NCBI GenBank assembly: GCA_021432635.1
Contig: MU270066.1
Coordinates: forward strand, 310,001-374,000
Source: Thozetella sp. PMI_491
Taxonomy: Eukaryota > Ascomycota > Sordariomycetes > Chaetosphaeriales > Chaetosphaeriaceae
DNA length: 64,000 nt
Reading direction: 5' to 3'
Shown here: positions 51,363-60,254 of the stretch, one piece after another
Layout of the letters: each line of letters begins with the position of its first letter
How positions within the stretch are numbered: position 1 is the first letter of the stretch
Translations under genes and position numbers: made by a program
Notes under the pieces: model-generated
Seen by the model: only the letters and a program-made list of their open reading frames with translations
Databases searched by the model: none
What the model was told of the DNA's origin: nothing

Positions 51363-53246
51363 ATGACTTCGATGCGTAAGAGCCCGCAAATTCATTCGGT
51401 ACGGGCGGGAGCGCTCACCGTATTGCAGATCGAATACGGCATCAGGCGCGCGCGGCGGCATGGAGCCGCCATGAGAGTCTCAATGGGTTCAACCCCTATT
51501 TTCGCACAGGGCGAGGCGGGCGACGGGAATGGGATGGAGGGGGTCTCGAGGCCCAGGATGCCGAGACCTCCGTATGGGGCGGACGAGTCACAGCTGACAG
51601 CGGTGCCGGAAACACTGCCGGCGCCATGGTGCTACCCCCAAAATCTAATGCCACAGTTACATTGGAGGAAGCCGCTCCGGACCGAAAGTCAGCCATAAAT
51701 GAAGCGGACAGCACAGAGCTAAACCCAGGCGCTCTGCGAAAGCGAAAGTGTGGCACAAGTGAGAACGAGCCTGTCGGGGAAGACGCTCAATCCATCTGGG
51801 TCTACGTGCAGTCGCTCTTCGGAAAAGAAGTTACCCTACAAGTCGACCCCTCTGACACCGTCTTGCAGCTCAAACAGAAGATCCAGGATCGAGAAAGCGT
51901 AGCACCGTCAAGGCAGAGGCTCAAATTCCAGGGGCAGATACTCGCAAACAGTGTTGCGCTCTCAGACTGTGGTATCCGTCGCGGCTCGACAGTCCATTTC
52001 GCTCTGCTTGGCCCTCCGCCTTTTGCGTTCCACGATCCTCCTAGTACCACGGTAGCAAGTCAGCTCCGGCTCTTGTTCGTCGCCTCATGGGCGCATATCC
52101 TACTCCTGGCTATCCCCGTCGGATTCGTCATCAACTACCTAGGGTCTCCCCCAGCAGCGGTGTTTGTCGTCAACTTCATCGCAGTCATCCCTAGTTCGAT
52201 CAATGTCAGTGTTGCGCTAGATGAGCTCATGCTGCGCGTGGGAGACGTGCTTGGCGCATTGTTGGACATGACCTTCAGGTAACTAGGCAGATATGCCGTC
52301 CCAACCACCGACCGGCAGACTGACGCTTCCTAGCAATGTTGTCCAGCTTGTTACGTCCATATTCCTGCTCCGGAATAATCAGGTTGCCGTTCTCAAGACC
52401 TCGCTCGTCGGCGCGATGTTATCCGATCTGCTCCTCATGAGCGGGCTATCCTTTTTCGTCGGAGGTATTAGACGCTACTCTCAGTTCTTCTCTGCGGTAT
52501 CCGCACAAGCCCTGACCTCTATGTTGTTGTTGGTCGTCGTGGGTCTTATGATCCCTACCGTGTGTCAACGTCTTGCCTTCATCGACGATGCCGGTATCCT
52601 CAAGCAGTCACGTGGGGCCTCTATCCTTTTCCTGGCTTCGTATATGCTGTGGCTATACTATCAGCTGTATACCCACAGGGTTCCCCCTGACATGATGTTT
52701 GCGCCATCGAAAAAGGTAAAGCGGAGGCTTGGAGGCCTGGATGCTGAACCGGAACCAGAGCCACCCGAAGATGAGGATATGGAGGAAGCTCAGCTCACCT
52801 ACCCATTCATCGCCGCCACGCTAGCCATTTTCATCACCTTGCTAGCCTTCAACATCCAGTTCGCCGCTGATAGCATCGACTTCCTCCTTCAAGATGCCGG
52901 CCTTACTCCTACGTTCATCGGCCTGGTCATTCTCCCAATTCTCAACATTGACCCCACCGTCCTCGTTGTCGCCCGCCGCGACAAGCTGGATCTCAGCATC
53001 GCCCTCACGGTCGGCAAGTGTATCCAGATAGCACTCGGCTTGGTGCCAACTGTCATGATTGTGGCGTGGGGGATGGGAAACACCGAGATGGATTTGGTCT
53101 TCGGGGTTTTCGAGGTTGTCATCGTCTTTGTTTCGGTTCTCGTGGTCTGTCAGGTCGTAGACAGAGGTCAGTCGGACTGGTTACAAGGGGCATTACTGGT
53201 ACAGGCGTACATCTTGGTGGCAGTTGCTTCATACTTCGTGCAGTAG
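51363..53246 (+). CDS. ubiquitin-like domain fused to CAX-type Ca2+/H+ exchanger, ion-binding motifs altered
   Basis: Proposed exons 51363-51375, 51429-52278 and 52334-53246 total 1776 nt, 591 residues. The conservative model starts at ATG 51626 (521 residues). In the long model residues about 127-200 are a ubiquitin-like fold: IWVYVQSLFGKEVTLQV, PSDTVLQLKQKIQDRE, RQRLKFQGQ, ALSDCGIRRGSTVHF. The Lys27 and Lys29 equivalents are kept; Ile44 is Lys, Lys48 is Gln, Lys63 is Arg, and there is no diglycine end. From about 225 it is a CAX exchanger: two sets of about five helices (SWAHILLLAIPVGFVINYLG, TSLVGAMLSDLLLMSGLSFF) with the family's acidic linker (EPEPEPPEDEDMEEA), then TFIGLVILPI and RDKLDLSIALTVGKCIQIAL. 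The CAX repeat motif GNAVE reads SNVVQ (288-292), and GNAAEH reads LNIDPT (491-496), so both ion-binding Glu are lost. Probably vacuolar or other endomembrane; transport activity is doubtful. Confidence 0.9.
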
Positions 53247-53519: not shown

Positions 53520-54423
53520 CTATGCCACCAGCTCGGCGTCAGCCACGCTCCTCTGGCTGCAGCGTGGCTGCAGAACGAGCTCCTCGGGAAGAAGCTGGGA
53601 CTTTGGCACAAGCTCTTTGCTCATCCATCCGCCAGCTATTGCGGGCAGCGCCACACCGAGCTGCATAAAGAAGAGGAGAATGAGTCGCGTGGCAAAGCTG
53701 CCAGTGACAGGGTCTAGGCTCGAGACTCGGAGGAAGGCGTAGGTGGTGTTGTACGCGAGGCGGACGAGGTGAAAAGGCATGGCGGCGCCGGCCGTGTAGA
53801 GCAACCACCTAGCCGAACGGTAGTTGGGGTGAGTCGGGACGGAGGAAACGCGCCGCCACGTCGGCCACATCCACCAGCAGATGGCGAACATGACGAAGAG
53901 CATCAAGCAGTTTCCAATCTGGTTGAGGTTTTCCGCCACGACACCTCCCTGCCCTGTCGGACTTGGAGCGCCACCGTATGTAGCCACCCCAATGCCGCCG
54001 GTATTTGCCAAGTGTGTCACTCCCAGAATGATCTTCTCCGTCCAGCTCTTCGGGGGAAGGGGAAGGATGATGTTCCTAAAGTGCAGAATGTGGTTAGCAT
54101 TGGGCTGGCCCAAATAGCGGCGTGGCAGCATACGCTTCGTAGACAAGACCGATGATGGTTAAAGATAGACATGCGAGGCTGCCAGCATTTGTCATGATGA
54201 TGACGGTGTTGTATTGTTGTGGCTCGTTGCGATGCATGATTTGGTAGATGTCGGACACAAAACGGAGGCCGAAGTAGGACAGAAAGATGGGCCAGCAGAC
54301 CATCCCTGCCTTTCCGTGCTTCCAGGTTATCCAGAGCGTAGGCGGCAGAAGAATGGCATAGATCACCAAGTCAGCGATAGCCAGGTTAATGAGGCTCGCA
54401 GAAGGTGGCTCCAGAGCGTCCAT
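53520..54423 (-). CDS. seven-helix membrane protein (DUF7702-like)
   Basis: Two exons, 54134-54423 and 53520-54075, joined by a 58-nt GTATGC/TTTAG intron; 846 nt, 281 residues, in frame. ATG 54423. Seven hydrophobic segments are seen: LAIADLVIYAILLPPTLWI, MVCWPIFLSYFGLRF, TVIIMTNAGSLACLSLTIIGLVYEA, a helix around IILGVTHLANTGG, LMLFVMFAICWWMWP, ARWLLYTAGAAMPFHLVRLAYN and TRLILLFFMQLGVALPAIAGGW. This matches a common fungal family of unknown function (DUF7702 in current naming, as I recall), with a topology like small 7TM receptors. The tail ends in a Leu/Glu/Arg-rich cytosolic part. It is divergent from the P450 gene. Confidence 0.85.
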
Positions 54424-57568: not shown

Positions 57569-60058
57569 CTATTCTAATGTGAACCTTTTCTTGGGGCCCG
57601 CATAGAATCCTCGCGCTGCCCGCTCCTCTTCCACCCCCTTAAACTCAATTTTGAGAATTCCTCTCCGACAAGATCTTTGGTTCACTGTAGAAACAATGAG
57701 ACAGACGATCGCATCGTGTTCTTCGCACTCAAGGAGCTGTATCCGACCCTGGTCGGCGTCCTTGCTCTTCCCATCCGCGGCTATAATACTCCTGAAAACA
57801 TCCTCGCGAGGGTTCCCATGGGTGCCCAGCACGAGACACTCAAGCTCGCCCTCTAGTAGGCTCTTGAGAAGCCCCTTCATTGAATACGGCCCCATCGATA
57901 GGTATGCTCTGATCGAGATCGATGGTATCTTGCGGAATGACATGAGCTCGCGCCTCTCCCAAACGTACAGCTCCTTCGGGTTGAGGACATGTGCGTCAAA
58001 ATGGAGCGTCTTCGCTGTGAGAAGTTTGGTGTATTGCTCAGTTCGCTGCAAGAACGTATAGTCTTCTGTAGCACCACCTTGAAACCCTATCTCGACAGAG
58101 CTCAAGTGGCTTGTCCAACAGTAGGGGAAGTCAGTCCTGCCCTCGAGTTCGCCAAACCACCCGGTCCATGACCAAGACGGGAACTTTAACCGACGCTGGG
58201 GCCTAGGATTACTGCGAGGATTCCATGGTATTTCCCCACGGGTAGCGGACTTCCGGATATTCCCATTTGGGTCGTCCAGAATGTTCACGTGGTGCGCCCA
58301 GGCCAGAGCATAGCTGAGATAGTCTAGTTGTTCTTGTTTCATATTCCACAACCTTGCAATTGGGTATGGAATCGCCAATCCAGATAGACTCGCGATGTTC
58401 GCGCTCGTTCTAGCATAGAAACGGGCAATGCCGGTATAAGCATTGAGGATGTCGTCTTCGTTGGTCAGTTCCCGCTTGGTGTACTGCTGTGTCTGGTCCA
58501 GACACCGGCGGATTATGTCAATCTTGCGGTGGTTTGCCATGTTCTTCCGCACGTCGAGATGCGAATATTCGTTCGAATTGCCGCACACAAACCGACCGGC
58601 GCGGAGATACGCCCTGAAGCGCTTGCCACTTCGGATATGAAGAGTCTTCAAGTTGCTCTTAAAGATTTCCACGCAATTCATCGCGTTGCACTCAAAGTAG
58701 ACTTGATAATCGGTGAAGAAAAGACAACGAGTAGAGAAAAGCCCTTCCTGGTAAGTCCATCCTCGGGTTGACCATTTGGCCTGCTCGATGCAGAAATGAG
58801 GGTCAGGTAGGGTAGACACGAACTCGTAACCCCCGACTGTAGTTCGTGGCGGCAGTCGAAGTCGACGCCTAGAGCTCACTCCAGGCAAACCGTACTCCGC
58901 ATCGTCTCCCAATGCAAAAATAGTCAGGTCCGAACCGGAGTAGATGTCTCCCATGCGACTACATTGTTGTAGCTTCTCTTCTTCATCTTCCTGATTGATG
59001 CAATACTTGTCCACCCAGAGGCAGGAGTAGCCAAGGTCTCTAGTGACCTGTATAGCATCTTGGATAGTCAAGGGGACGTTCTCAGGGAGTTTCGACGGCA
59101 ATCTTTCTGGCACGCGGGCTCCACAGCGTGTTGCTTGGTGGGATGTAGAGGAAGTTCCCTTCATAGCGGACGTCTTTCGAGATGGGGCAAACTTTGACGA
59201 AAGCAAATGCAGGCTGGGCGGAGGGGAAGACTGGGGAAGCGGCGGCTCTGCGTTGGTAACATCTTCTCCTTCTTGGGGCTTTCTCTCCGTTGGGGACGAC
59301 GTAGTGGTTCCGCTTGGAGCTTGAGCTCCCCAAACGTAACTGAGGGCCGCGTATCTATCTTCGGGGCGGAAGCGACGGATGACTGGCTCCTCGAAGCTAC
59401 AGTCAATCACTTTCAATCCCTCGACTTTAGGGGGCCTTGGGTTGCAGCGATCTTTATGACGACGCTTGCACATGTCCAAACATGGTGAAACCACCTTGGG
59501 ATCGAACTGCCTGGTTACTTGTTGGGGCATAAACAGTTCGGATTCAGGGCGCCCCTTGACGATGACGGTCACCATTCCATTTGCTGCTATGTGCTTTAGC
59601 AGTTCCTCCCGCCACCCGCGTCCCTCTGGGACAACAGCAATGTGATATGGCGCGTCGTGTTTCCGTAGCACACTTCTAGCAGTTTGCCGATCGTTGACAT
59701 GGGGAAGATGTCGGAGGTGCGGGAAGATATGGATTCGATCTCCAGCATTGTCTGCGGCCCACGGCGTCGAGTCCCGGACTTTCACAAAGGGTGCTATCCA
59801 AGGTGCATGGAGTTGGCGGCAGAGTGTACAGGTCGTAGAGGGAGGGATATTCCGAAATCGAGTCCCAACATTGGCGATCCGTTTTCCAACCCAACTGATA
59901 GTTTCCCCGGAGGTTATTGCTTGTTCGATTTCACCCCAAGGAATCTTGGAACACTGATTGCAAAGCTGGCTGGCTCCGTGGCGAGGACGTTTGACGGCAT
60001 GTCTACTGCCTTTTCTAGAAACTTCGCGCCGGTTGTTCCTTGCCCTCTTTCCTAGCAC
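57569..60058 (-). CDS. HET-domain (heterokaryon incompatibility) protein, start codon not found
   Basis: A single open frame of 829 codons ending at TAG 57569. The HET domain is marked by YAALSYVWG (about residues 236-244), TIQDAIQVTRDLGYSCLWVDKYCINQ split over 331-356, DIYSGSDLTIFAL and STRGWTYQEGLFSTRCLFF (about 431-447). Upstream are the usual N-terminal blocks: LCNQCSKIPW, CTLCRQL and CLDMCKRRH. About 85 residues of Pro/Ser-rich sequence lie between YVWG and TIQDAI, several times longer than usual. The C-terminal part has PSWSWTGWFGE, typical of this family. The frame begins with GTG, and no ATG occurs in the first 160 codons, so an upstream exon is missing from my model or the gene has lost its start. 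The function would be non-self recognition and cell death on hyphal fusion. Confidence 0.85.
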   Translation of the reverse strand: MLGKRARNNRREVSRKGSRHAVKRPRHGASQLCNQCSKIPWGEIEQAITSGETISWVGKRIANVGTRFRNIPPSTTCTLCRQLHAPWIAPFVKVRDSTPWAADNAGDRIHIFPHLRHLPHVNDRQTARSVLRKHDAPYHIAVVPEGRGWREELLKHIAANGMVTVIVKGRPESELFMPQQVTRQFDPKVVSPCLDMCKRRHKDRCNPRPPKVEGLKVIDCSFEEPVIRRFRPEDRYAALSYVWGAQAPSGTTTSSPTERKPQEGEDVTNAEPPLPQSSPPPSLHLLSSKFAPSRKTSAMKGTSSTSHQATRCGARVPERLPSKLPENVPLTIQDAIQVTRDLGYSCLWVDKYCINQEDEEEKLQQCSRMGDIYSGSDLTIFALGDDAEYGLPGVSSRRRLRLPPRTTVGGYEFVSTLPDPHFCIEQAKWSTRGWTYQEGLFSTRCLFFTDYQVYFECNAMNCVEIFKSNLKTLHIRSGKRFRAYLRAGRFVCGNSNEYSHLDVRKNMANHRKIDIIRRCLDQTQQYTKRELTNEDDILNAYTGIARFYARTSANIASLSGLAIPYPIARLWNMKQEQLDYLSYALAWAHHVNILDDPNGNIRKSATRGEIPWNPRSNPRPQRRLKFPSWSWTGWFGELEGRTDFPYCWTSHLSSVEIGFQGGATEDYTFLQRTEQYTKLLTAKTLHFDAHVLNPKELYVWERRELMSFRKIPSISIRAYLSMGPYSMKGLLKSLLEGELECLVLGTHGNPREDVFRSIIAADGKSKDADQGRIQLLECEEHDAIVCLIVSTVNQRSCRRGILKIEFKGVEEERAARGFYAGPKKRFTLE

Positions 60059-60254
60059 AGGATTTTGCGGAAGTGCAGGCTTGCGTTTAAAGCGATTGTA
60101 TCGGCTTCCGGGGCTCGAGTTCTATACGTGATTGTTAGGATTTATCCCACAAATGGCGACCAGAGCCGGTGTGATAAGTTGGCTGGAAAGAAACATCTCC
60201 GACAGAGTCGTATCCTTTCAGTAACGGACCGAGATGCTCACCGTTTGTCTAGGC

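Follow-up and report, generated by a model that had tools for sequence, protein, structure and literature searches.

A ubiquitin-like domain fused to a CAX-like membrane domain with altered ion-binding motifs in Thozetella sp. PMI_491 and a few other fungi

Introduction

Can a protein with the fold of a CAX exchanger still exchange Ca2+ for protons when the glutamates of its ion-binding motifs are replaced or lost, and what would a ubiquitin-like domain (UBL) contribute to it? The question is raised by a gene of the sordariomycete Thozetella sp. PMI_491 located in a 64,000-nucleotide stretch of contig MU270066.1 (positions 310,001 to 374,000 of assembly GCA_021432635.1), referred to below as the window. 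An original prediction, made from the letters of the window, had described a UBL fused to a CAX exchanger with neutralized motifs.

The bacterial exchanger YfkE provides the reference for the pocket. As described in the available text of PMC10227063, protons are carried by the carboxylates of E72 (alpha-1) and E255 (alpha-2) of YfkE, and the exchanges E72Q and E255Q each abolish Ca2+ transport. According to the same text, E72Q keeps Ca2+ binding, which is about 3 times tighter (Kd 0.14 versus 0.46 µM), and E255Q has no saturable Ca2+ binding; in a hypothetical model, S278 and H256 were restrained near phosphate.

Results

Translation of the three exons (Table 1) yielded a protein identical in 591 of 591 residues to the NCBI protein of Thozetella sp. 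PMI_491 (P0001). The gene sits on contig C52 of the 72.3-Mb Thozetella genome. The UBL is encoded together with the initial membrane helices by a single uninterrupted, stop-free exon. A mis-joined gene model was considered and dropped on account of this shared exon and of relatives with the same fusion, which supports the claim that the prediction is not mis-joined. PF00240 matched residues 130-196 with 71.9 bits, above the Pfam cut-off, and two PF01699 repeats were found. An AF2 model and structure comparison agreed with Pfam, giving a beta-grasp ubiquitin fold for the UBL and a full CAX fold, with a predicted membrane fold close to that of Vcx1. The predicted fusion was thus recovered, and so was the claim that the fold is kept despite altered motifs, with no stops in the frame. 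A DUF7702 exon adjoins the gene on the opposite strand (window positions 53523-54158, minus strand); a HET (heterokaryon incompatibility) domain is present in an 850-aa open frame at 57572-60121, also on the minus strand.

Table 1. Features of the fusion gene (positions in the window)
Feature	Position	Strand	Residues	Remarks
Whole gene	51363..53246	+	591 aa	stop codon within coordinates
Exon 1	51363-51375	+		
Intron 1	51376-51428			GT..AG
Exon 2	51429-52278	+		
Intron 2	52279-52333			GT..AG
Exon 3	52334-53246	+		
N-terminal tail motif	51372..51502	+	4-29	MHRIRHQARAAAW..FNPYF; split by intron 1
Ubiquitin-like domain	51791..52021	+	126-202	ends LLGPPP, not RLRGG
CAX-like membrane domain	52040..53243	+	209-591	split by intron 2
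alpha-1 motif SNVVQ	52277..52346	+	288-292	replaces GNxxE
Acidic linker between CAX halves	52746..52787	+	426-439	
Helix NIQFAADSID	52851..52880	+	461-470	Gln463
alpha-2 motif LNIDPT	52941..52958	+	491-496	3 residues shorter than GNAAEH
Asp494 codon	52950-52952	+	494	
GKCIQ	53013..53027	+	515-519	replaces GSSxQ
Lys516 codon	53016-53018	+	516	aligns with YfkE Ser278

With SNVVQ and LNIDPT in place of GNxxE and GNAAEH, the Thozetella protein does not have the Glu of either alpha motif. Upon alignment to YfkE, its alpha-1 Gln corresponded to the E72Q change, the retained Asp fell in the H256 column, and Lys516 in that of S278. Because S278 is near phosphate in the hypothetical YfkE model, the Lys516 position would lie in the pocket. 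The likeness to the E72Q mutant is confined to alpha-1, since that mutant retains GNAAEH and Ser278 and the Thozetella protein has neither. Compared with Vcx1 (PDB 4k1c), the fungal vacuolar Ca2+/H+ exchanger, the Thozetella protein is without the alpha-1 Glu, has an alpha-2 motif that is three residues shorter and a Lys for Ser in GSSxQ, and bears a long N-terminal tail with the UBL.

Relatives were collected by three protein searches, each covering the best ~8000 candidates and the last using a profile of subfamily members; these gave at least 94 distinct proteins. P0007, which has ubiquitin repeats and no CAX domain, was left out of the alignment. A three-residue gap in alpha-2 was taken to define a degenerate CAX-like subfamily and was present in 39 of the 95 aligned rows, absent from 54, and not assignable in two that lack the region. 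As the gap itself assigned the rows, evidence on the subfamily comes only from other columns, and the counts are of rows rather than independent events, with near-copies among them (P0027/28/29/32 and P0057/58). The Thozetella protein has the gap, no alpha-1 Glu, and the Lys in GKC, and it falls on the one branch of the subfamily.

At the alpha-1 Glu position, the 37 subfamily rows with data carry Gln (31), Asn (5), or Leu (1), compared with Glu in 54/54 elsewhere. The residue beside the alpha-2 gap is Asp in 36 rows, Glu in two, and Asn in one (P0047), so that an acid is retained in 38 of 39. The neutralization of the motifs proposed in the original prediction therefore stood in part: the alpha-1 Glu is replaced and the alpha-2 Glu is lost, but a displaced alpha-2 acid (Asp494) is kept. 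A joint loss of acids at three places was not upheld, because of this alpha-2 acid and because the TM7 Glu is changed to Gln (Gln463 in Thozetella) in only 14 of the 39 subfamily rows; in the 54 others, this position is mainly occupied by Glu (42 rows) or Asp (8 rows). A feature that had been overlooked is the basic residue at the second position of GSSxQ, which is Lys (34) or Arg (5) in all 39 subfamily rows versus Ser (53) or Ala (1) in the 54 others. Within the subfamily, conservation ranks among 347 columns were 14 for Q519, 26 for N289, 35 for D494, 40 for K516, and 57 for Q292; N289 and Q519 are also canonical CAX residues. Simple decay was set aside as an explanation in view of the conserved pocket. 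Acid-base covariation was likewise considered and discarded: just P0022 and P0061 have Glu in the column of Asp494, both together with Arg at the Lys516 position, and these rows are too few and are related.

Trees were calculated with 50 of the 95 rows (34 of the 39 subfamily rows and 16 others). The canonical rows occupied one side of a branch with support of 100/100 in the full tree and 100/99 after removal of the diagnostic columns. As they are confined to this side, the motif change appears to be a single event on these trees, even without the diagnostic columns. Branches within the subfamily are long, and caution is due for the long branch of P0069 (tree without diagnostic columns) and the odd composition of P0014 (both trees). 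Names in the subfamily include Botrytis, Botryotinia, Sclerotinia, Aspergillus, Corynespora, Acrodontium, Trichoglossum, Pyrenula, Thelotrema, and Xylographa, all of which we take to be Pezizomycotina (three were looked up). Several of these genes, e.g. P0026, P0028, and P0032, are labeled vacuolar calcium ion transporters in UniRef. The degenerate proteins of Botrytis, Sclerotinia, Aspergillus, Corynespora, Thelotrema, and others share the pocket signature of the Thozetella protein but, unlike it, show no UBL among their precomputed Pfam domains. Relatives in which no UBL was detected thus carry the altered motifs as well, so that the change does not hinge on the fusion. That canonical motifs would be restored by a corrected sequence, a possibility raised with the original prediction, is unlikely because relatives share the altered motifs.

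PF00240 and PF01699 were both above their cut-offs in at least four proteins, i.e. the Thozetella protein, a metagenome protein of 625 aa (P0003), P0025 (697 aa), and P0047 of Xylariomycetidae sp. FL2044 (584 aa), a second sordariomycete. In P0023 of Xylographa pallens (Lecanoromycetes), a ubiquitin-like start is present and the middle of the UBL is missing; its UBL end scored 19.2 bits and so missed the 25.4-bit cut-off. A UBL was therefore detected in 5 of the 95 aligned rows, P0023 being the one below the cut-off; the Pfam UBL scan covered 10 chosen proteins, and the remaining rows were judged from precomputed domains. The recommended search for the same architecture in other proteins thereby found at least three further cases above the cut-off and the half UBL of P0023, and a lack of fusion orthologs coupled with decay, which would have spoken against the prediction, was not encountered: fusion relatives exist, and the pocket is conserved in the subfamily.

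In the trees, the five fusion rows group with P0002, P0049, and P0054, which are N-terminally truncated, with only 0-7 residues ahead of alpha-1, so that they are incapable of showing a UBL. Support for this clade is moderate (91/77 in the full tree and 90/77 without the diagnostic columns). The tree requires one UBL change if the three truncated rows are left uncounted and three if they are scored as UBL-less. On these trees, a single UBL gain has moderate support when the rows of sufficient length are considered. Neither a UBL-CAX fusion nor the degenerate subfamily was found described in the open-access literature, with searches partly aimed at the fusion, which agrees with the earlier statement that no system of this kind is known. 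A review on Ca2+ transport in fungi (PMC6997533) does not use the word ubiquitin in its available text and gives four Vcx1 genes for M. oryzae and five homologs for B. bassiana.

The tail preceding the UBL was examined with the pattern [RK]..[AE][RHYK].{8,26}NP[FYW], which was devised post hoc from the tails and sought in the first 75 residues. It was present in 27 of 40 rows of at least 470 aa, compared with a mean of 0.04/40 for shuffled tails; this control excludes chance composition only, as the rows are related and the pattern is post hoc. By group, it occurred in 9/16 subfamily rows and 18/24 other rows, the canonical Thozetella paralog C106 being among the latter, and in three of the five fusion rows (P0001, P0023, and P0025, not P0003 and P0047). 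As the pattern is common to canonical and subfamily rows, the UBL was probably inserted into a pre-existing tail, between the N-terminal motif and TM1.

The UBL of Thozetella is identical to ubiquitin in 33 of 73 aligned residues; the values are 49/76 for P0003, 50/76 for P0025, and 40/76 for P0047. The Leu8-Ile44-Val70 patch reads Leu, Lys (Lys170), and Ala, so that the receptor-binding surface of ubiquitin is not preserved, and the C-terminal Gly-Gly of a conjugatable or cleavable ubiquitin is missing. Ile44 and Val70 are retained in P0003, P0025, and P0047, P0023 being without the middle part. Four of the five fusion UBLs end in Gly-Gly-Gly: ...RLHGGG (P0003), ...RLRGGG (P0025 and P0023), and ...TLRGGG (P0047). 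Judged by these alignments, the Thozetella UBL is the most derived of the complete UBLs, and the relatives would be better suited for studying UBL function. Lys at the Ile44 position and the missing Gly-Gly weaken an ordinary ubiquitin-receptor role in Thozetella, not in the relatives, and make it doubtful that the UBL has kept a conserved function in this species.

The Thozetella genome retains CAX genes with ordinary motifs. The canonical paralog C106 has the intron at alpha-1 in the same position and phase as the fusion gene and also shares a WDGxxLEAQ-like tail with it. Together with P0030, P0042, and P0048 it belongs to the canonical long-tail CAX proteins, whose group neighbors the subfamily in the tree. 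These proteins are like the Thozetella protein in the N-terminal pattern and, for C106, in the position and phase of intron 2; unlike it, they keep GNAVE and GNAAEH and show no UBL. Intron 2 splits the first codon of alpha-1 in the fusion gene, and the matching codon is likewise split in C106 and in the paralog on contig C45. The latter (C45:390281-391520; L015, L017, and L026) is a second degenerate CAX gene with the motifs SNIVL and PNCDF; PF00240 had no match on this contig. A further degenerate gene (C73:166674-167180; L018) comprised the second half only in the stretch examined, with TNCEY, GKSIQ, and an internal stop, and looks like a relic. A second UBL-CAX fusion was not seen in the genome: among the best candidates, the 17 PF00240 and 27 PF01699 matches were never close enough to belong to one gene.

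Discussion

As demonstrated above, the Thozetella gene is a true fusion that is shared by few fungi and lies inside a conserved, motif-altered CAX-like subfamily. By analogy with YfkE, Ca2+/H+ exchange by the Thozetella protein is unlikely. We infer its transport status, its localization, and the function of its UBL as follows. The protein may be a conserved CAX-like pseudo-exchanger with a rebuilt pocket that carries a UBL module and serves as a receptor or as a regulatory subunit, a proposal to which we assign about even chances. The pocket would have been rebuilt once, with the alpha-1 Glu changing to Gln or Asn, alpha-2 losing three residues including its Glu and keeping a nearby Asp, and Lys or Arg arising at the pocket position during the same rebuild. 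As the proton-releasing alpha-1 Glu is gone, a two-carboxylate Ca2+/H+ cycle would not be expected. The protein would most likely act in an endomembrane, where the Asp might bind a cation without turnover, like YfkE E72Q, or Lys516 might pair with Asp494 and replace the cation. The UBL in the N-terminal tail would serve in docking or trafficking and would probably lie on the cytosolic side. Known proteins offer partial parallels: residues before TM1 inhibit the activity of plant CAX (described in PMC9310016), CAX1 and CAX3 form heteromers (described in PMC5853972), and ubiquitin placed in frame on membrane proteins can drive internalization, for which Ste2 needs the Ile44 patch (described in PMC4276913). 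Against a pseudo-exchanger, the conservation of the pocket also fits an active transporter of another substrate, Asp494 may substitute for the Glu that was lost, and the fusion relative P0047 has Asn, not an acid, beside the alpha-2 gap.

A less probable alternative is that the protein still exchanges ions but has acquired another substrate: the pocket would be retuned for protons, for monovalent cations, or for an anion such as phosphate, with the UBL regulating turnover. The pocket residues are conserved and not drifting, the Lys stands where YfkE has S278 in the hypothetical phosphate model of PMC10227063, and, in the available texts of PMC5133943 and PMC10227063, selectivity in the superfamily shifts with changed ion-coordinating residues of the alpha repeats, which keeps altered selectivity viable. 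The absence of an alpha-1 carboxylate from all 37 subfamily rows with data argues against it, given that YfkE E72Q halts Ca2+ transport, and a buried Lys would disfavor cations. Unlikely, in our estimate, is an ion receptor in which the alpha-1 Gln pocket binds Ca2+ or another ion without release by the proton cycle; a conformational change would reach the UBL in the cytosolic tail and link the ion state to ubiquitin-binding partners or trafficking, and the Gly-Gly in the clade would allow release of a modifier. Still less probable is the persistence of an ordinary Ca2+/H+ exchanger of lower affinity, with Asp494 as a substitute for the alpha-2 Glu. The acid kept in 38 of 39 rows and the likeness of the predicted fold to Vcx1 are consistent with it, and partial loss would be tolerable beside the ordinary CAX genes of the same genome, but not one of the 37 rows has the alpha-1 Glu, and transport by YfkE needs both carboxylates (PMC10227063).

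We consider it very improbable that the UBL of the clade is a processed modifier that deubiquitinases free from the membrane part, as a tailed ubiquitin-like protein, by cutting after Gly-Gly. Such cuts are made by deubiquitinases in ubiquitin-ribosomal fusions, and four of the five UBLs end in Gly-Gly-Gly although they have diverged elsewhere; the Gly-Gly may, however, be a mere remnant of a ubiquitin donor, and with prolines at its LLGPPP end the Thozetella UBL is not expected to be cleaved. An artefact or decay, i.e. a mis-joined model or a dying pseudogene, is extremely improbable. The rarity of the UBL (5/95 rows, one below the cut-off), the long subfamily branches, and the relic-like C73 paralog could be read in its favor, but one stop-free exon covers both the UBL and the start of the membrane domain, the fusion recurs in the sordariomycete P0047 and, as a half UBL below the cut-off, in the lecanoromycete P0023, and the pocket residues are conserved.

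HERP, TMUB, and Dsc3 are membrane proteins with a cytosolic UBL. In these proteins, as in ubiquitin-ribosomal fusions, the UBL is chained to an unrelated partner; the partner in Thozetella has the fold of a multi-pass antiporter. If the pseudo-exchanger explanation is true, an exchanger fold was converted once by a precise change of pocket residues and kept across several fungal classes, and one branch later acquired a ubiquitin-like domain. Given the UniRef transporter labels, fungal calcium gene counts may then include non-exchanging proteins. The subfamily would also offer natural variants of the E72Q type for study of the exchanger mechanism.

Other CAX-like genes were observed in passing. 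At C8:581094-586009, several CAX-like matches lie on both strands within ~5 kb, some with the odd motifs GNAGEL and GIAGKA. The CAX-like genes at C77:203067 and C29:584626 (L020 and L021) have VEKAAEH where VGNAAEH is expected. In P0014 of Pneumocystis sp. 'macacae', a 691-aa model, CAX is followed by a J domain; this model may consist of two merged neighboring genes.
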